Of a stretch of 64,000 nucleotides of DNA, positions 1,537-53,244 are shown one piece after another (within the stretch, counting starts at the first letter, position 1; the number at the start of each line of letters is the position of its first letter). A program made the position numbers and the translations under genes. Under the pieces are notes generated by a model. It did no database searches. It was not told the DNA's origin and worked only from the letters and a program-made list of their open reading frames with translations. This DNA comes from Mortierella sp. BCC40632 (Eukaryota > Mortierellomycota > Mortierellomycetes > Mortierellales > Mortierellaceae). The stretch lies in the NCBI GenBank assembly GCA_011634665.1, contig WAEK01000002.1, positions 1,824,001 to 1,888,000 on the forward strand, given 5' to 3'.

Positions 1537-4509
1537 ATGGTGCATCGTCAGGACTCGTCCGAGAAACAGCTCGGCGACCTGCGGGCCGTCATCGCCGCAC
1601 TACCACAGATGCCAAGGAATATCGTTGACGATACCCGCCACGAAAAAGTGCTTTCCTACGTGTCTGCATTCATCGCCCAGGGAGACCCCACTCTCATCGC
1701 AACGATGTTATCTGAATGGGGGATCCTAAACACGATCAGTGTATGCTAATGGCTTGAGAAGAGGAGAGAACGCGTGAACGCGAGAGAGAGAGGAGGAGGA
1801 GGAGGGAGATAGAGATCACTGCATTGGAAAGACTGTTTGTTGTCATGTCATTCCGCTGACCATGTCTGATCTCTCCCGGTTAATCATACCCTTCATCGCT
1901 TGATCACTCCCAGACCTGTTTAGCCCCTGATCAGGACTATCGCATAAGCTGTGTCGCGTTACGGATCCTAGGCTATCTATTGGAAAATGAGCCTGCCCCA
2001 GATCAGATTGGCCAAGAGATCACAGATACTCCTAGGATCTGGACATTGCTCGAGTCGCGCTATCCAACCATCCTCGCCTTTATGCTGCACAACACCCTTG
2101 GCGAGGAAGCCCTAACCCGGTATTCCTGTTGGTTTGCCTTGGAGCGGATTGTCAAAAACGATGAAGGCGCTCAGTGGTATGCGGATCAAATCTCAAAAAG
2201 AAAAAATCGGGAGTCCCTTTTAATCATGTCACTCCTACGAATGTTTGACCCCTTACTAATCGACCTTCATCTATCGTGACTACATCGAGCTTAGGCTGCT
2301 CCAATCTGGCAACTTTTCGGAGATGGTTCGAGCGGCCCTCAAAGACTCAAGTACCTACGTATGTTGTGTCACGAAAGCCTTTTATGCTTTAATGCACCCT
2401 TACTTTGTCAAACGCAATGCTCATGATCCCATTTCTGCTCCTTCCTGTCGACCATAGGTGCTTGCCGCAGCATGTCAGTTTTTGGTAGCCGTCATTGAGA
2501 ACCGAAGCATCGATCCACTCCAGACGACGTCCCATGATGCTCTCTTAGATTCGCTCTTGGTCTCAATTTCGCTCTTGGACTTGATCCAATCCATGGTGAC
2601 TGATCAGTCATCCGAGGCAAACCGGTTAGCTGGACTAGAATTCCTTTGGATGTTAGCCGACTCCAGGTCTGCTCGAAGCGCTGCCTTCTTACAGCAAAGC
2701 CGACTTGTAGGTGTCTTTTTTTTTCAACATTTATTTCTTGATCGATCACCGAAGAAAGGATAGAGTTCATGGCAGTCTAACTCTTGATATAACAATTATT
2801 TAGTTCAACATGTACATGGATCTACTCTTGGATGAATCTCGCTTGGTCAGAGCTCGGACACTGGAAACTCTGTCCATTTTGCTGGAGTCGGCCGAAGATC
2901 CCCTAGGAATTTTGGGCAACGTACCGAAGCAACAAGAAATGGAGCTTGATCGTTCGCATGATGAGGCTCTGGTCCAATGTAAGTCCTGGATAGAAAAAGG
3001 ATATGTATTGCATCTTTGTTGAAATTCGTATTCAGGATCCTTTTGGTCTGATTTTGACTCTTCCTTTGTAGGCTACAAGCACCTTATAGATACCGACATT
3101 GTAACACTTATGGGACAGGAAGGATCCCTAAAGGCAATTCATGTAGCGACCGGAATTTTAGATGCAATGGTTAAACCATTGCATCGCTCGGAGGAAATGC
3201 ACGGGCATGGCAAGTTCTTTAAAGACACTATCCTTTCTGCTATACTCTGGATAATCGACACGATGCACAAAGTCCAAAGCACAGGTTTGCATGACAACCT
3301 CAGTTATACCTCACCCCCAGTAGTCAAAGGGGACATGAAACTTGCACAGCATCTCAACAGTCCCAAGCTCCGAGAGCATGTACAAACTCTGTTGCAAACG
3401 AAACAACCTCGATCTGTGGGTACGCTTCCAAAGATGATCATCATGTCATCCCTGAAGGCTCTACAGAGCCTCGCTCAGCACTTTCCGACAGCTGTTGAAC
3501 AGAGTGATGCCATCCATATTGTGCTCTCAATTCTTTTTGACCAAAAGATGTGCTCGGAGCAAAGAGTTTTCAAGGCTTGTCTGGCCACCATTCCGATCAT
3601 GTTAAAGACCAAAGTACAGAATGGACAACTCTTAGACGAACCACTTTTTTTGAAGACCATGGAAACCATCATCGGTCTGATTCACCGTCCCTCCAGTGGA
3701 AGTTCCTCGTTGAGACTGATTCTGGTCGCTGTTCAAGAGTTTTTCATGGATCCAACTCTTGGAAAAACACTCGTACAGGAGGTAAGGAAAGATTGGTAGA
3801 CAAGAACACAGAAAGTGAAGGAAAGCTTTTTTTTTTTTTTTTTTTTTTTTTAGCCACTCTTTCATCCTTACTGATCTCACTGTTTCGAAAACTAATTCTA
3901 GAGAATTGGTCAAAATTTAGCCAACAGTCTTGGCCGTAAGCTTTATGATATGGAGTGGGATATCCGTGATAATGTAGTTGAGTTTGTTGGAAACTTGTTT
4001 GTTAGCGTAAGTACCAAAAAACAAGTTCTGTTGGAGATATTACCCCCAATCGCTGTATCCTTTACACTTGGATCAACTTTCTCACCAGCGAGTTGGACTC
4101 GTTATCTTCTTTTTAGGGCGGACCAGACAACGGCGTCGAATGGGCGTTAAAGTATGATTTGTTGGAATCTATTTTTCAAAAGTTGTCGGACGAAGAGGCC
4201 TATGTTCGAGCTGCCAGCATTCATGCCTTTGAAGTCATTATGAGAGACACGCGAGGCTGGAAGAGAATGTGTTCTGAGGGGTTGGAGACTCGTTTGAGCT
4301 CTCAGTTGCCAATCTTGATCCGTGACAGCGAAGCATTTGTCCGGCGTGCAGTCTTGGAAGCCATGATCTGTCTGGTGAGCGAACGCGAGTCAGGGATCAT
4401 CATTATGGTAAACGGAACAGATTTGTTTGTAGAGTAAGTGGACTCTCCTTGATCTATAAGTTTGTTTTTATTCTTCATCTTCTTTTTTATATTTATACTC
4501 ACTATTTTA

Positions 4510-21864: not shown

Positions 21865-23998
<2,134 letters not shown>

Positions 23999-31072: not shown

Positions 31073-34000
31073 CTAGTTCTTGCGAGGTGCAGCAATCGAG
31101 TTGGTCCGCTGGAGGGAACGAGTTCGGCTAAAGATGGTCTTGATCGTTGGGACCATGTTCAAACCAAGAATCTCGTCGTTAAACGCCGTTGGTCTCAACT
31201 TGCGAAGGACCAGCTGTCGAACAGTCGCATAGAAGATGATGAAGCAACCGAAGGCCATTGGGATCAACAGATACACAAAGGGCGTATCGTTTGACGTTCC
31301 AAAGACCACGGGTAGGCCTGGGCAATAGACGATAAAGAAACCGAGCGCACTACCAAAGATCATGCCAATAAACGTACGGATGTTCGAGAACATGTACATT
31401 CCAAAGGGCAATCGGAGACGAGCCTTGCAAGCAAACAAGTTGAAGAGTTGCATGATCATGATCGACAGATAGAACGACGACTGAGCCTTGGCCAATACAT
31501 CCAGATCGAATTGTGTTCCTTCAGAGGAGAAAGCGTTCTGTTTCTGGAGTGCAACAGCCTGAGCAGGGGTATAGCCTCCCTCCTTGTAAAAGACGACAAA
31601 GAATGTCACCAATGCACCGATCGTCTCGATAATACCAACCTCGAGGTAGGCCCAAGAAAGAAGACCTCCATCGACCAACACCTCATCTTCAGTCGTTTCG
31701 AAGCGCTCGCGCCAGTACACAGCAGTGAACATAGCCTTAAAGTCGTGTTGGAATCGAGCCCAGAACGAAGGCTTGATCTCTTCTCCAGACTCGGCATCGA
31801 AGACAGGGGGCAAAGCACGGGAAGCGAGACGGCGACGACGTTCGATTGAAGCAGGTGTCACAGGCTTACGAGGGGGCAGACGCATCAATCCAGTGCTTGT
31901 CTCGGGCAAGTCCCAAGCAAACGTCAAAGAAACGATGAGTTCGAAACCCAAGTCGATGACCAAGATCAACATGGCGCTGATGGGCAAGGGGACGGAGGCA
32001 ATCACATAAAGCAAGTTGGGAATGACTTCAGGCATGGAGTGAGTGATGGTGTACTGGATCGACTTCTTAAGGTTGGTAAAGATCAAGCGACCCTCCTCGA
32101 TACCACGGACCGTTGAAGCAAAGTTGTCGTCCAAGAGAATCATGGCGGCTGCATCCTTGGACACATCCGAACCCGAGATGTTCATAGCAATACCCAAATC
32201 AGCCTTCTTCAAAGCAGGTGAATCGTTCACACCATCACCTGTGACACCGACAATATGACCCAAAGCCTGAGCGCGCTTGACGATCGTGAGCTTGTGCTTG
32301 GGCGAGGTTCGAGCAAAGATGATTTCGTTCTTGGAAAAGATCAAGTCCCAGTCCCGGTCGGTCAAAGCATCGATTTGTTCACCATGGATCACAATTGCAT
32401 TGTACTCATTGTCGCCCACCTCGTCCACAGAGCAGCCACGGTGCTTGGCGACCATCTCCTTGGTATCCGAAATCATCAAGTTGATCTTGCGTCCAATGGC
32501 CTCGGCCGTCAAAGGGTGATCACCAGTGACCATCATCACACGGATACCAGCAGAACGGCAACGACCGATTGCCTCACGGACACCATGCTTGGGAGGATCT
32601 TCCAGAGAAACAAGGCCGACAAAGCAGAGGTCCGTTGTTGGGTAATTCTTCTTCTCAGTTTCAAAGACATGTCCGTCTGGGTACTGGTCGCGGGGCAACA
32701 ACAACTGAGCGAAAGCCAAAACACGGTGACCCTTGGAAGCCATAAGAGCATACATCTCATCGTACGCCTTGGAGTGCTCTGCAGTCAGAGGGATTGCCTC
32801 ACCATTGACCAAGATCGTGCTGCAAAGACGCAAAATTCGTTCGGGTGCACCCTTCATCAAGAGAGTGAATGATCCAGCAGAGTGTTCCTTCTTGTGAATG
32901 GTCATAGCCCACTTGTTGTCCGAGTTGAAGGGCACCTCAAAGACCTTGGGATAGACATCGTTCAGGCTGTCAAAGTTTCCGATGTTGGCTGCAGCAAAGC
33001 GAGTCAGACCTGATTCAGTGGCGTCGCCGAGGACCTGACGTTCCGAGATAGGGACATCAGTTCGATCAAATTTGGCACGGGAGCAGAGAGCAGAGATAGC
33101 AAGCACTTCAGGAATACCAGCCGAGTTGGCATCAAAAGGAGCACCAGCATTGGCAGCACTACGGAAGGCCGAGTACATGTTGAGCGAGGACCAGATGTTG
33201 GTAACCGTCATCTGATTGCGAGTCAATGTTCCGGTCTTGTCGGTGGCCAGGAGTGTGATTGCGCCGAGGGTCTCGACACCGGTCAAATCCTTGACAAGGA
33301 CGTTCTGGGAAGCCATGCGCTTGGCGGCGATGGTCAAGAGCATCGTGACCGTGGCTGGAAGACCTTCAGGGACAAAGGCGACAAAGACACCAATCGCAAA
33401 GTTGAGTGTGTTAGCAATTCCGGATGAACCCTGGTATTGGTAGACAGCAAAGTAACCGATCAAGAAGAAGATGATGGCAGTCGTAATGGCGATCACGGCA
33501 ATGATCTTGACAAAGTCGTCAATCTCGCGAGAGAGGGGCGACTTTCCAGAGTCCTCGGCGGCTGTCAATCCTGCAATTTGTCCCAAGACGGTGCTGTCGC
33601 CCGTGCGGATGACAATTCCGTATCCTTCACCGTTGACGACGAGTGATCCGTTGAAGCAAATATTACGGGCTTCGAGCGGGTTCTTCATATCATTGGCAAC
33701 AGAGCGAGCCTGGGGGTCAGTCTCGCCTGTGAGCGAAGAGTTGTCGACTTTCATCTCCGTGCAGGCGAATAGCAGGATATCGGCAGGAATTTTGTCACCC
33801 ATGCGTGCAAAGACAATATCACCAAGTACAAGATCCGAGGCGGGGATCTGCAACGACTTGGAATCACGAACGACAAAACACTTTTGGGGCATGAGGTTGA
33901 GGAAAGACTGCAGAACCTGGGCCGACTTGTGGGCTTGGTAGAACTCAATGGCGGCATTCAAGAAAGCGACAATGATCAAGATAGCACCCAAGTAGGTCTA

Positions 34001-43121: not shown

Positions 43122-44065
43122 CCTGGCACTCTGAATTCTCAATCCTTGAGTCGGTCCAGACTTTGGGAGATGGTGGCGATTAGGTTGAGTGGACAAAAAA
43201 AAGCTGTATTTGGCGGACATTCATTTTTGACCCTTTTTTCTTCTTCTAGTCCTGCAGGACACACATATTTGCCTCCACCTCTGTTCTCGCTGGTCCTCTG
43301 GATGTATTACACGCCCAAGAAGCACCACACTGGTCCGTGCCTCGACGACGATGTAGGTCTAGTAACGCAATAGTCAATACTGGAGATTGCCTTGGAACCC
43401 TTGAAAGACTATCAAGTCATAGCCATCTCATAGTCATAATTATTTTTTTTATTTTTTTGGCAACAGAGCTCGCTCCGAGCTGGTCGTTGTCCTGCAGTTT
43501 TTTTGTTTTTTTTTATATTGCCTTGCCATGATTAATATCTCAGAAGAAGCCTTTTTTTTTTTTTGTCTTCTTGTCTTCTCGACAAAGACATCATTGTTTA
43601 CTATCTCTGGCTAGACTGGACAAATAATAGAGAACGCCTTGGTTTCATCAAGCTTTCCAGGAACGAGCGATGGCAATACCGAGTTCACTCCAGTTTTTTG
43701 ATTACTGACTCGGTAACAGTTTTAGTTTTTCTCTCTTTCTTCCTCCTTTCAAACCCAATTGCGCCAAGCACACCCACACCTAGGACACTAGACAACTCCT
43801 GCACATCACCCAACCTCAATTCACATCTCGTTTATCTTTGGTTTAGGAACCACAGACTTCGATTAATCGTCTTTGGACTCTTTGTTCTGGTGCCTTCAAC
43901 GTCTGGATTGAAACAAACTGACAGAGTCCGTGAAAAAAAAAGTGATTCATGCATTGTTTTCACTACCAAAAAGGCGAGTTTCTTGCTCTTCGGCAGAAGG
44001 AGCGGAAAGAGGAAGTACAAGTGCCAAAAATGAATTTTTGCGAGAAATTGCAAAAGAGAAAGGAG
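43122..44065. promoter_or_regulatory. Csm1-like promoter side and tRNA 3' flank
   Basis: A 944-base spacer right of the Csm1-like start. A 156-codon frame at 43563-44033 has no recognisable domain. T-rich runs occur at 43441-43458, 43499-43514 and 43552-43564. No other gene is supported. Confidence 0.4.
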
Positions 44066-44138
44066 TGGAGAACCTGGGCATCGATCCCAGTGCCTCTCGC
44101 ATGCTAAGCGAGCGCTCTACCATTTGAGCTAGATCCCC
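44066..44138 (-). tRNA. tRNA-Ala (anticodon AGC)
   Basis: A 73-base cloverleaf read by hand on the minus strand. The acceptor is GGGGATC with GTTCTCC plus discriminator A (one G-U and one mismatch). The D arm is GCTC/GAGC, the anticodon stem CTCGC/GCGAG around TTAGCAT, and the T arm CTGGG/CCCAG with an ATCGATG loop. The A box TAGCTCAAATGG and B box GATCGATGC fit the Pol III consensus. A T4 terminator follows at 44055-44052. There is no intron. Acceptor G3-U70 is the alanine identity pair. Confidence 0.95.
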
Positions 44139-45118: not shown

Positions 45119-48100
45119 TTACTCGTCTAGCATATCCACTTCCATTTCGTCGATAAGCTGTTCCTCGAGTGCATCCTCATGGTTGTCTGCCATGTCTTGC
45201 TTCTGTCTCCATTCATCATCCTTCTCACTACCTGCTTCAACACTGTTGACTTTGTCGACTGTCGGTGATGGCGTCTGAACCTCCTTCAAAGTCTTCAACT
45301 CGTGGACACTGAACCAACCAGGTCGCAAGCTTTCTTCTCCACCAACTCTCTTGCCCTTTGTTACCTTATGTTTCTTGGCCCAAAGTTCTAGCAACCGACC
45401 CCGACCATTTTCCTTGAGATATCGCGCATCTGGCAAGAGTGTTTCCATCATCTCATATGCACCAACGGGCTTTGGTTCTGTGTAGTTATCCTCAAGCCAT
45501 GAATCTGTGGGCTTTTCAAAATCAATGATCACATCTGCTGTTCTTTGGTGCCGAATATCAAAGCCATCACCCTGTTAATCAAATAAGCACATGAGATGGG
45601 AAGGAAAGCGTGTGTTAGTATCCTTATCTGAGAAGGAAATAAAATGGCAGCACTATGTAATGCTCATGAATTGGAGTCTATGATACCTTCTTGAACATGA
45701 GAAGAATTTCCTTTGAAGTTCGGAAAAAGGGTGACAGCCGGACATTATCAGAGTTGTTCAATGCCCTCTTGTACCAAACCAAATTCTCGACATATCGACA
45801 ACCTAGGACCCGAGTATATATATAAAAAGAGAAGAAAAGATGCCAGTCAGATATCAAATTTTCGTATCTAGCATTTCAAAGTCGGATCCAGTAAACAGCG
45901 GGACAGTGCTTTGGCTTACCAAGACCATGCATAATGCTGACGACTTCAGGGAGGATAGCCTTGTGTGTCCAAATGCTCACGATTCCATTCGGCAACAATT
46001 CCAAAGCATTTCCTATGATCTCGGCCTAGAATAAAGTGAATTGAATAATTAAAGTGTCAGTAGACCGTCTTCAGGACCCGATCCGGAATAAAATGTCGTC
46101 ATGCCGTTTGCTAAACATACAAACTGCTTCGTGGTAAGCCTGCATGAGCCATCATTTCGCCCATCCTCTACAATAAAGTTCCATGGTGGATCAGCTAAAA
46201 TGCCTTGAAAGTTTGCCACAGGCTCCGAAAAACCCTCGGACAGTGAGCTCCAGTCAAATCCGCGCAATGACTCTGTTTCCTTGTAACTATTGGGGTAGAT
46301 GAATAAAATAAGGAAGTTAAAATAGCTTGTCAGTCTTGGTTGCAGGACCCATAGCAGTCTTGACGAAAAGTGGGAGAGGCAATAGCGTCAATGCACGATG
46401 AACGTTACATGCATCCTTCCACAGATCCGCTGTCCTTGTTTAAATTATTGCGTGTGATGATCCTGTGCGCCCAGGTGGGGCGTTGTTCCACATCTTTGGG
46501 GATCATGTCCTTTACAACATCAGGGCATTCGACTCGAACAGGACGAATATTCTTCCAGAAGAGAGACAATCCTACTTGACCCTTGAAAACTGAAGTGTTT
46601 GTCATTGGTGCTTTCCTGATTTCAACCGGGACAATCTTCTTTGCAAAGGGCGATGCAGAAGAGGATGATGAACTAGGAATCGTTCCAGGGACTGTCAACG
46701 ATAGAGGCTCCCGGATTTTCTTGGCCTCGGATTTTTTTCTACCACGCAAAGCATCCCAGACTTATGTTAGACCGACCAAGTTCAGCTCGCCAAAAAAAAA
46801 AAAAAAAAAAAAAAAAGCCTTATGGATCAGCGTGCTCGCCAATCGACTCTTGGCTTACCTCATGAAGGAGGCGTATTCTGCTAGTTTGTCGTCAATATTG
46901 ACAACGGGTATCATATCCGTTTCCTCCGCAAGCTGTCTTGTTGATCGAATTGATAATGAGGAAGAGTAGGCGGGCGCGGTTGTGGCCTTGACTCGGGGTG
47001 CTTCAATAGATGGTCGGAAGACGCCTGAACTATTCTTCATAGCTATCGCAATATTCGGCTTGCTGGCAATACTTAATTTTGACCCGCTGGAAGACGATGC
47101 AATAGTATCAGCCCGTTTTGTTTTTGCGACAGTTGGACGGGGGCTAGAGGTAGTCGAATAAAACTCCATTAATATGCGCCTTACCATGCTCAGGCGTGTT
47201 TAGGAGACCCATTAAATGCTTTCAGTCATACAAATCCTACCCTGCATTGGTGTGGTACTCCTTGATCCACTTATTGATATCCGCTTCAATTTCTTTGACT
47301 TCGTCGGTTTTCCAGCGTTCGCTCAATCCACTGACAGCCATTTCTCCGCCACTTGACTTGTTGACCATAATAAGTTTACCCTTCTCCCAAGCATAGGCAG
47401 GGTCAAAAAGGGTTTTGTTCTCCAAAAGTTTTCGGTAGTAGGAACTGCATTGATATCCCGCTTTGTGGGAGACGCCCATACTGAAAACACCCCAGGAAGT
47501 GCCAATTCGGATGCCTCTGTCTTTCCACTCCTGAAGCCGAGCCATAAACTCTTCGGTTGATTTCTTACTCCATGGTCCATTTTGTTGTCCTTCCGTTGGA
47601 TCTAGATGTATTATCCAAGATGTTGTACATAAATGACTGGAGCGTGTTAAAAAAAACAGTTTCCCTCAAATGATCGGCGTTGAGGGCGACAAATACGTTT
47701 CTAAGGATATGTTGTGGATCTTTACCAACAAACCGATAGTAGAAAGCCTCGACATTCGATCTTCTATGGTCCCATGTCTTAATGCGGACCTCAGACCAGT
47801 TCTTGACTTGATCATGGGTAAAAACGTCTTCCATGCCATTCACAGACCTCATGGTGGACTTTGCTGACTTTGGCTTTATCCCTTTACTCTTGAAGGGTAC
47901 CGAGGTCAACGAGTGACTCAGAGTGGGTCGAGATGATTGCAGGTCATTCGTAATGGCTGACTGTGGGGGTCGAGTCTTTTCATCCACCGATGATGTTGAC
48001 GTGGTCTTGGTTCCTGTTGTCATAAAATCATCCAGATCGTCCAATTCATCCGCCACCTCGTCATTCTAATTATCAAGGCAATAGAAGTGTTAAAAAAGAA

Positions 48101-48662
48101 AAGAAAAAAAGAAAATAGATACAGAGGTATTGGAAAGGATCGCCCAAAACCAAGGGGATGGTGGGGTAGAGAAGAAGCACCCTTTCCTTTGGGTGTACAA
48201 ACTAGTCGAGTCCATACCTCTTTTCTAAGTTTTTTAGTGCTGGGTAAATCCTGTTCCACAGTTAGTTCAGCCTCGTCTATCTCAGCCATGTCCAAGTTGC
48301 TCTTTTGGAATAGATGTTTTTAACAAAGAGAGTTAATAGTCTAACACCAGTAGATCAGTCCGCAGAAACAATAAAAACAACAACAAAGCATCCCCAATCA
48401 TCATGTGGAATCAAACAAGGCCTACCCATTCCTGTTCCAGTGAATCTGATCTTGCCATCGGCACACCTGATGCTTCAGATGCAGTAGACTGAGCATTCTC
48501 TGAAAGTCGGATTCGCTTCAGGGATGAGTTGAGGGTCTGCAAAGGCCCTGAGAGCCGACGTTCAGACATTGAGGTCTGACTCGTAGTGCCAACATCAGCA
48601 TCAGTATTGCAGACCACAGCCGGATCTTCCTTCGGCTCTACGATTGGGTTTCCTGTGAGCAT
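45119..48662 (-). CDS. MT-A70 family adenine N6-methyltransferase with SANT/Myb-like domain
   Basis: Ten exons (48662-48426, 48301-48218, 48065-47726, 47601-47241, 47143-46859, 46738-46409, 46286-46121, 46025-45920, 45802-45687, 45571-45119) join in frame to 825 residues. A disordered acidic N-terminus precedes a domain at about 195-330. That domain reads YYRFV-DPTEGQQNGPWSKK, then WGVFSMGVSHKAGYQCSSYY, resembling a SANT/Myb-like helix-turn-helix. The catalytic MT-A70 fold follows: ILADPPWNF (DPPW at 578-581), then IVSIWTHKAILPEVV, VENLVWYKRALNN, SPFFRTSKEILLMFKK, and a late RPGWFS. All SAM/adenine-binding motifs appear intact. Early-diverging fungi carry abundant DNA 6mA at ApT, attributed to an MTA1/AMT1-type complex. 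Fusion to a DNA-binding-like domain suits a DNA rather than mRNA target. METTL4-like activity is the main alternative. The start (MLTGNPIVEP) is the first in-frame ATG after upstream stops. Confidence 0.8.
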
Positions 48663-51397: not shown

Positions 51398-53244
51398 ATG
51401 GCTGCTTCACACGGACTCACCAACAAGGAGGTCATGCACCTCGAGCACCAGTATGGTGCCCACAAGTAAGTCAATCTTGTCTCGTAGCCATCCCCAAAAG
51501 GCGTCTTCTTCCTTTTCGCTTCGCTTGCTCGCTCTCCCTTCTGCTCTGCTGCGCCTGATCCACTCTTACTAACTGATGATCCCATCATCACATGGTCTAC
51601 CTGCATCCTAATAGCTACCACCCTCTTCCCGTTGTCTTCTCCAAGGCCCAGGGCATCTGGGTCTGGGACTGCGAGGTATGATTACCATCGGATCTACTGC
51701 AAAGAATGAAGAGAGACAAGAGACTAAAAAAAAAAGGCTGAGAGCATCGTCTGGACTGGGACTTGATGATTGGACTAGGCCAAGAGTTCTCTCCTATTCT
51801 TCTGTTCTCTGTCTCTCTGTCTCTCTCTCTCCCCCACACGGGACCTTCGATCCCCTGACTCACACATTCTTATTCTCTCGGCTTCTCTTCCTCCAAATAG
51901 GGTAACAAGTACATGGACTTCCTCTCGGCCTACTCGGCCACCAACCAAGGTAAACATCTCTTCATCTTATCGCAATCCCGGTGCAGACACATGCACAGTT
52001 GCTTCTCCTGCCTTGACCGACCGAATTGCATGTCGCACGACCCCCTTTGTCCGCTCTCACATCATTCTAACTCTATATATTTTCCGATTTACTCCTTTCT
52101 TTCTCCAGGTCACTCGCACCCCAAGATCGTCAAGGCTCTCTGCGACCAGGCCCAGCGCCTCTGCCTCTCCTCCCGCGCCTTCTACAACGACATCTTTGGC
52201 CAGTATGCCAAGTTTGTCACCGAGTACTTTGGCTTTGACAAGGTCCTCCCCATGAACACCGGTGCCGAGGCTGTCGAGACCGCCATCAAGCTTTCCCGCA
52301 AGTGGGGTTATATGAAGAAGGGAATCCCCGAGGGTGAGGCCGTCGTCCTCTCCTGCACTGAGAACTTCCACGGACGCACTGTCGGTATCATCTCCATGTC
52401 GACTGACCCCGATGCTCGCGCTGGATTCGGTCCTTATCTCCCCAAGGTTGGCCCCGTCTGCCCCGCCACTGGCCGCACTATCCGCTACAACAACATTGAG
52501 GATCTCGAATACGTCTTGGAGCACAACGGCAAGAACGTCGCTGCCTTCCTCGTCGAGCCCATCCAGGGCGAGGCCGGTATCATGGTTCCTGATGAGGGTT
52601 ACCTCAAGAAGGTCTCTGAGCTCTGCAAGAAGCACAATGTCCTCATGATTGCTGATGAGATTCAGACCGGTCTTGCCCGTACTGGCAAGCTTCTCTGTGT
52701 TGAGCACGATAACGTCAAGCCCGATATTCTCCTCTTGGGCAAGGCTCTCTCTGGAGGTATCTACCCCGTCAGCGCTGTTCTTGCCAGCGACGATGTGATG
52801 CTGTGCATCAAGCCTGGTGAGCACGGCTCGACCTACGGAGGCAACCCTCTTGGATGCGCTGTTGCCATTGCTGCTCTTGAGGTCATCAAGGAGGACAACC
52901 TTGTCGAGAAGGCTGCTGTCCTCGGTGAGAAGTTCCGTGCTGCTATCTCCAAGATCCAGTCGCCCGCTCTTGCTTTGACCCGTGGTCGTGGTCTCTTGAA
53001 CGCTATTGTCATTGACGAGTCCAAGGCAAACGGTCGCACTGCATGGCAGTTGTGCCTCTTGCTCAAGCGCAAGGGTCTTTTGGCCAAGCCCACCCACCAG
53101 AACATCATCCGTCTTGCTCCCCCTCTCTGCATTACTGAGGCTGAGCTCATGGATGGTGTCCGTATGATTGATGAGTCGCTCAAGGAGCTCTTGGCTTTGA
53201 CTGACGCCGAGGCCAAGGCTCTCGAGGCCGAGGATGAGCACTAA
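51398..53244 (+). CDS. CAR2: ornithine aminotransferase
   Basis: Four exons (51398-51465, 51615-51675, 51901-51949, 52109-53244) give 437 residues. It is a class III PLP aminotransferase. Markers are [18 protein letters not shown] near the N-terminus, [40 protein letters not shown] (the PLP-pyridine Asp), and KALSGG with the Schiff-base lysine at 271. [13 protein letters not shown] follows. It converts ornithine and 2-oxoglutarate to glutamate semialdehyde and glutamate in arginine catabolism. There is no obvious mitochondrial presequence, as in yeast Car2, so cytosolic location is likely. Codon use is strongly biased to C-ending codons, suggesting high expression. A long open frame on the opposite strand is a by-product of that bias. 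Confidence 0.97.

Follow-up and report, generated by a model that had tools for sequence, protein, structure and literature searches.

Early-diverging fungi carry much symmetric N6-methyladenine (6mA) at ApT sites. A stretch of 64,000 nucleotides from the fungus Mortierella sp. BCC40632 (contig WAEK01000002.1, positions 1,824,001 to 1,888,000), here called the window, encodes on its minus strand a protein in which a Myb-like module precedes an MT-A70 methyltransferase-like domain. The question raised by this locus is whether such a protein writes 6mA itself, as a sequence-only reading had proposed, or assists another protein that does. Sequence comparisons favour the second answer: with a probability of roughly 0.6, the protein is a second MTA9 (AMT6/7) paralog of zygomycete-type early-diverging fungi, one that carries a Myb-like module and would pair with the catalytic subunit AMT1 and add DNA or chromatin contact in cis.

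One gene with a Myb-like module and an MT-A70 domain

Ten minus-strand exons (48662-45119), once spliced, form a single open frame of 825 amino acids (aa); the nine introns of this Myb/MT-A70 gene are all of the GT-AG type and measure 95-152 nt. The features of the gene, in window coordinates, are the following:

48662-48426, minus strand, exon 1, single open frame
48301-48218, minus strand, exon 2, single open frame
48065-47726, minus strand, exon 3, single open frame
47601-47241, minus strand, exon 4, single open frame
47143-46859, minus strand, exon 5, single open frame
46738-46409, minus strand, exon 6, single open frame
46286-46121, minus strand, exon 7, single open frame
46025-45920, minus strand, exon 8, single open frame
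45802-45687, minus strand, exon 9, single open frame
45571-45119, minus strand, exon 10, single open frame
47602-47725, minus strand, intron 3, within the module (GTAAAG...CTAG; junction peptide also in orthologs)
47243-47834, minus strand, N-terminal module, residues about 185-340, split by intron 3 (profile, AlphaFold2, fold comparison)
45272-46428, minus strand, MT-A70 methyltransferase-like domain, residues about 540-775
46181-46192, minus strand, DPPW motif, residues 578-581, in 58 of 60 window-type proteins
45780-45794, minus strand, YVENL, residues 640-644, equivalent to MTA9 Y164, E166 and L168, which touch MTA1 (contacts from PMC9174199)
45539-45553, minus strand, RHQRT, residues 682-686, equivalent to MTA9 R246 and T247, which touch MTA1

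The peptide across the junction of intron 3 (FYYRFV/DPTEGQQNGPW) was found again in the nearest orthologs, and a start of this intron at 47657 was ruled out because it breaks the reading frame. The spliced translation confirmed the DPPW motif where the sequence-only reading had placed it, at residues 578-581 in the MT-A70 domain, and Pfam assigned residues 572-732 of the 825-aa protein to MT-A70 (E 8.8e-6, 26.2 bits with a cut-off of 23.9).

The homologs found were 73, of which 60 were classed with the protein described here (window-type) and 13 as ordinary MTA9-like. When the module was represented by the pattern G-Y/F-Q/M-C and the methyltransferase by DPPW, 54 of the 60 window-type proteins matched both patterns, and the six that did not (P0035, P0054, P0060, P0064, P0065, P0066) are partial or oddly modelled. 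The pairing of module and methyltransferase is therefore not a matter of chance. That the two parts belong to one polypeptide, as the sequence-only reading had it, is supported. As had been proposed, the arrangement differs from that of ciliates: p1 and p2 of MTA1c have small helical domains of DNA-binding type (homeobox-like), akin in kind to the module, but are separate proteins, whereas the module described here is on the same chain as MT-A70. Pairwise identity with eight deep relatives was 38-64% in the module, 42-54% in the methyltransferase and 22-35% in the linker, so that both folded parts appear to be held while the linker drifts.

The core of the module carries the signature W-G-x-F-S...G-Y-Q-C-S-S-Y-Y-R-K-L, with flanking helices on top. 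Pfam reported no family at the module of the window protein alone, and recognised Myb_DNA-binding in three of 12 module relatives (best E 8.9e-4). A profile of the window-type modules alone retrieved no Myb chain from the PDB and gave three chance matches up to E 10. With profile A5, made of the window-type modules and two related modules of the same genome (L018 and L019), c-Myb came first (E 1.6e-4), followed by WER, B-Myb and the SANT domain of DNAJC2, in a listing of 19 rows, some of them unrelated to Myb. The AlphaFold2 model and the fold comparison gave a three-helix Myb fold. The Myb/SANT-like nature attributed to this part of the protein thus stood up to the profile matches and to the predicted fold: the module is Myb-like on both counts, and contact with DNA is predicted. 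The DNA-binding domains of TRF1 and TRF2, to which the p2 domain has been likened (PMC9174199), match the predicted fold weakly, and fungal P1 has been termed Myb-like (PMC13297926). No p1 or p2 chain matched the module profiles in the PDB or was listed in the fold comparison (VIA), a result that does not exclude them.

The two related proteins of the same genome are L019 (G000:C2:1241500-1247000), with a GYQC-type Myb module and a U-box-like end (Pfam E 0.005, below cut-off), and L018 (G000:C7:925000-931000), whose GYQC-type Myb domain is located towards the end of the frames that were read. They are 38% and 32% identical to the module of the window protein (E 2e-8 and 8e-10, respectively) over about 80-105 residues, a homology that extends past the Myb core; unlike the window protein, they show no MT-A70 in the frames read. 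Both are candidates to compare with fungal P1, and neither could be identified as P1.

The fold-comparison lists for the module include CoREST, DNAJC2 and CDC5L, and Myb domains of the SANT type commonly recognise histones or other proteins instead of DNA. Both points count for an alternative that we consider very unlikely, namely that the protein acts on RNA or protein complexes, as a pseudo-methyltransferase that scaffolds a chromatin complex with no connection to 6mA. It is opposed by the conservation of most AMT1-docking residues and by the nearest family, which works on DNA (PMC9174199).

Placement of the MT-A70 domain and its docking residues

A phmmer search of the PDB matched the protein to 8xyl_B (MTA9-B by the titles of sister PDB entries) with E 2e-13, to MTA9/AMT7 with about 1e-10 and to MTA1 with 1e-3 to 8e-2; no METTL3 or METTL14 chain was among the 11 rows obtained with E up to 10. 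In a 39-row tree, the window-type proteins and the Entomophthora pair formed one clade (99/98), which fell within the AMT6/7 side (98/97) and was separate from AMT1, METTL3 and METTL14. This tree holds several long rows; METTL14, a long branch, stands in this tree only, and the METTL4-like L006 joined next to the AMT6/7 side on a branch of 5.2 changes, a placement that we do not trust. When five long-branch rows were dropped (METTL4, METTL14, P0057, P0073, P0058) and a Paramecium MTA9 fragment was added, the window clade was recovered (98/96) and split from AMT1/METTL3 (100/100). Placing the window clade with AMT1 (L005 and Tetrahymena MTA1) was rejected by the approximately unbiased (AU) test (p-AU 2.76e-6), while placing it with the fungal ordinary MTA9s was not (p-AU 0.517).

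As judged from these comparisons, the window-type MT-A70 domain belongs with the AMT6/7 (MTA9) helper family, its exact spot there being unsettled; since the grouping with fungal ordinary MTA9s was not rejected, a duplication within fungi is a possible origin. An identity as AMT1/MTA1 is ruled out by the PDB matches, the tree and the AU test, and one as METTL3/METTL14 by the PDB matches and the 39-row tree. The domain thus does not group with METTL3, a grouping that would have counted against the sequence-only reading.

A search of the assembly for MT-A70 gave three further loci. L005 is AMT1 (240 bits to Tetrahymena MTA1 as compared to 119 to METTL3; GNEL tail), L004 codes for an ordinary MTA9 with DPPL as its motif and HYVGYVEDNE upstream (76 bits to 8xyl_B), and L006 looks METTL4-like by its motifs. 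This search misses genes of short exons and in fact missed the Myb/MT-A70 gene, so more may exist. In the last exon of L005 (G000:C14, locus about 3127-3132), a run of T immediately ahead of the conserved SERRGQSQKPEE contains a one-base frame break, which may reflect an assembly error in the homopolymer or genuine damage to the writer gene.

The window protein shares with MTA9/AMT6/AMT7 of ciliates, algae and fungi the side of the tree, the YVENL and RHQR-T/S docking motifs and the loss of the N and E residues of the S-adenosylmethionine (SAM) pocket, but those proteins are without the Myb-like module that it has at its N-terminus. Ordinary MTA9 has instead an N-terminal motif, GYVEDxE, a feature seen in this analysis and unpublished as a criterion: the pattern was found in eight of 13 ordinary members and in L004 (it misses P0062, which has GYVEDGE) and in none of the 60 window-type proteins.

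The residues of MTA9 that touch MTA1 are named in PMC9174199. They were scored in 56 aligned window-type rows cut around [DN]PP[WL] (a slightly wider pattern in carried-over rows), from which P0035, P0049, P0064, P0065 and P0066 are excluded. Y164 was kept in 54 rows (two gaps), E166 in 54 (one K, one gap), L168 in 55 (one gap) and R246 in all 56, with T or S at position 247 in all 56. AMT1 and METTL3 carry other letters at 166, 168, 246 and 247. In the RHQRT region, R, H, Q, R, D and V are invariant in the 50 sequences of alignment A3. P248 is A in the window protein (A in 48 rows, P in eight), and the loop 218-222 differs in the window protein; across the 56 rows its commonest letters are unlike those of Paramecium throughout. 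The docking residues of MTA9 are mostly kept, and it is chiefly on these grounds that pairing with AMT1 is expected.

The SAM pocket and the DPPW motif

With the catalytic subunit AMT1/MTA1 the window protein has the MT-A70 fold and DPPW in common, but it is without N360, N370, E371 and the YLQH interface letters of that subunit. The SAM contacts of Tetrahymena MTA1 are listed by Chen 2022 (PMC9174199), where the substitutions D182A, D209A and N360A eliminate activity and weaken the binding of SAM. In the 56 rows, K334 was kept in 54 and E353 in 55. F355 was kept in none (W in 55), R357 in none (K in 49), N359 in three, N360 in one, N370 in two and E371 in none; the window protein has K, K, E and L in the columns of R357, N360, N370 and E371. 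The D182 column is poorly aligned.

DPPW behaves differently. It was present in 58 of the 60 window-type proteins, a count free of row selection (56 of 56 in the rows chosen around the motif), and the exceptions are P0035, whose gene model is without that stretch, and P0064, a C-terminal piece. The ordinary MTA9s have a similar tail and the full DPPW in only four of the 14 rows covering the site (P0055, P0062, P0063, P0073); the motif is NALW in Tetrahymena MTA9 and DPPL in the ordinary MTA9 of the same genome. Its presence in the ordinary P0055, P0062 and P0063 means that the helper family did not lose it everywhere. At the level of sequence, therefore, the SAM pocket is largely altered while DPPW is firmly constrained.

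One alternative is that the protein is an active, Myb-targeted DNA adenine methyltransferase, for example de novo, working either alone or in a two-site heterodimer whose other active site is that of AMT1 or MTA9. We regard this as unlikely, because the domain groups with the helper family and because N360, whose change to alanine abolishes the activity of Tetrahymena MTA1 (PMC9174199), is kept in one of 56 rows, N370 in two and E371 in none, with K for R357 in 49. It would be a long shot that zygomycete fungi evolved a second type of 6mA machine, an MT-A70 protein that targets itself through a Myb-like module choosing the DNA sites, and in which the conserved DPPW takes part in catalysis. AMT1 complexes would then have both active sites at work, or the protein would be an independent adenine methyltransferase, perhaps a de novo one; it would also stand in, in cis, for the missing p2. 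The proposal of the sequence-only reading that the protein is a DNA 6mA writer is not supported, given that the domain falls with AMT6/7 (MTA9), that the genome has a separate AMT1 and that most SAM contacts besides DPPW, K334 and E353 are changed. Catalysis by the window protein itself appears doubtful, and an alternative helper bringing its own DNA contact is more likely than a writer.

Spread of the fusion and its meaning

The closest protein is that of Lunasporangiospora selenospora, with 86% identity over residues 500-780 and 92% over 185-345. The fusion was found across several phyla: window-type proteins came from Mortierellomycota, Mucoromycotina (among them Umbelopsis, Thamnidium, Rhizopus stolonifer, Cunninghamella, Apophysomyces, Circinella, Endogone), Bifiguratus, Calcarisporiella, Dimargaritales, Entomophthora muscae and metagenomic contigs. 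The gene model from Entomophthora muscae (P0054) begins inside the module. The Entomophthora-like P0061 has module and methyltransferase in one frame of 636 aa on a contig of only 2315 bases, which for this reason looks like a transcript; this is suggestive of a one-chain arrangement and not proof of it. The metagenomic P0073, whose MT-A70 domain is MTA9-like and has DPPW, is another chromatin-type fusion, its precomputed domains including PF05964 and PF05965 (FYRN and FYRC).

Around the gene, a tRNA-Ala (AGC) is located at 44065-44138 (minus strand), about 1 kb past its 3' end. Pfam identified a DEAD-box helicase at 21868-23811 (minus), a P-type cation ATPase at 31076-33997 (minus) and a class-III aminotransferase at 51901-53241 (plus), and gave no family for four of the seven neighbouring frames scanned, out of eight of at least 260 aa.

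In the reading that we prefer, the MT-A70 domain of the window protein would pair with AMT1, the catalytic subunit, which a separate locus of the genome encodes, and the Myb-like module would let the AMT1 complex touch DNA or chromatin at one more point, within the same polypeptide. The protein might then be an alternative partner beside ordinary MTA9, by analogy with AMT6 and AMT7 in Tetrahymena, where AMT1 has two alternative partners, the AMT7 complex serving maintenance and the AMT6 complex being recruited by PCNA (PMC13297926). That the protein is not catalytic by itself, and that it influences 6mA at all, are parts of this view that we infer.

Several observations weigh against it. At the docking surface, F142 is S in the window protein (F in 21 of 56 rows, S in 26), and R231 is K in the window protein and in 55 of 56; in addition, VIA, which reports one best chain per entry, listed the MTA1c and METTL3-METTL14 entries by their catalytic subunit and not by the helper. 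The near-universal DPPW (58/60, as compared to 4/14 in ordinary MTA9s) is odd for a dead enzyme, and K334 and E353 are retained (54/56 and 55/56). A further point concerns the metagenomic P0057 (596 aa), whose methyltransferase groups with algal-type MTA9s, Parachlorella among them (100/99, 39-row tree), and has NAPL in place of DPPW. A 21-residue segment of P0057 resembles the end of the module, with 10 identical positions. In a set of 315 sequences the module profile scored this protein with E 2.7e-4, better than any of the 300 shuffled controls (best 0.71); the remaining 12 ordinary members gave at most E 7.5 with this profile, and Pfam found no Myb in P0057. On this one truncated model, whose N-terminus is apparently wrongly modelled, the fusion may predate fungi or have arisen twice.

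The last of these points is that, if Mucorales are without an ordinary MTA9, the window protein could correspond to the Mta9 that has been described from them. It would then be the ordinary partner of AMT1 in Mucor and Rhizopus, and Mortierellomycota would merely keep an extra MTA9, which we hold to be quite unlikely. A Mucor mta9 homolog has in fact been reported (Lax 2024, PMC11258239), window-type proteins occur in Mucorales (P0038, P0041, P0042, P0043, P0044, P0053, P0060), and no Mucorales-named ordinary MTA9 was among the matches listed in the last protein search, which scored the 7994 candidates sharing most words and cannot speak to absence. The same search listed no ordinary MTA9 of Mortierella either, despite the presence of L004 in this genome, so that little weight can be given to the lack of one from Mucorales; moreover, Rhizopus Mta9 is drawn as inactive in a review (PMC13297926), in contrast to the DPPW of window-type proteins.

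A published fungal MT-A70 tree (PMC8298701) has an AMT6/7 class, in which such genes may already lie uncommented, and UniRef labels some members as Myb-like domain-containing protein, so that automatic annotation has already caught the domain. In Romero Charria 2025 (PMC12695648), a legend describes the architectures of the family in terms of MT-A70 and ZZ alone. We found no account of an MTA9 paralog fused to a Myb domain in searches of the open PubMed Central library or in passages of PMC12695648, PMC11258239, PMC13297926, PMC9852454, PMC9174199 and PMC8298701.

In Mucor, symmetric 6mA reportedly depends altogether on mta1 and p1, and no p2 is present (PMC11258239). An intact DPPW alone does not mark the writer, because the AMT1 ortholog here is another gene (L005). 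A conserved, putative Myb-bearing partner, distinct from ordinary MTA9, is a candidate for directing the AMT1 complex of early-diverging fungi to particular sites or for forming a second, alternative one with AMT1.
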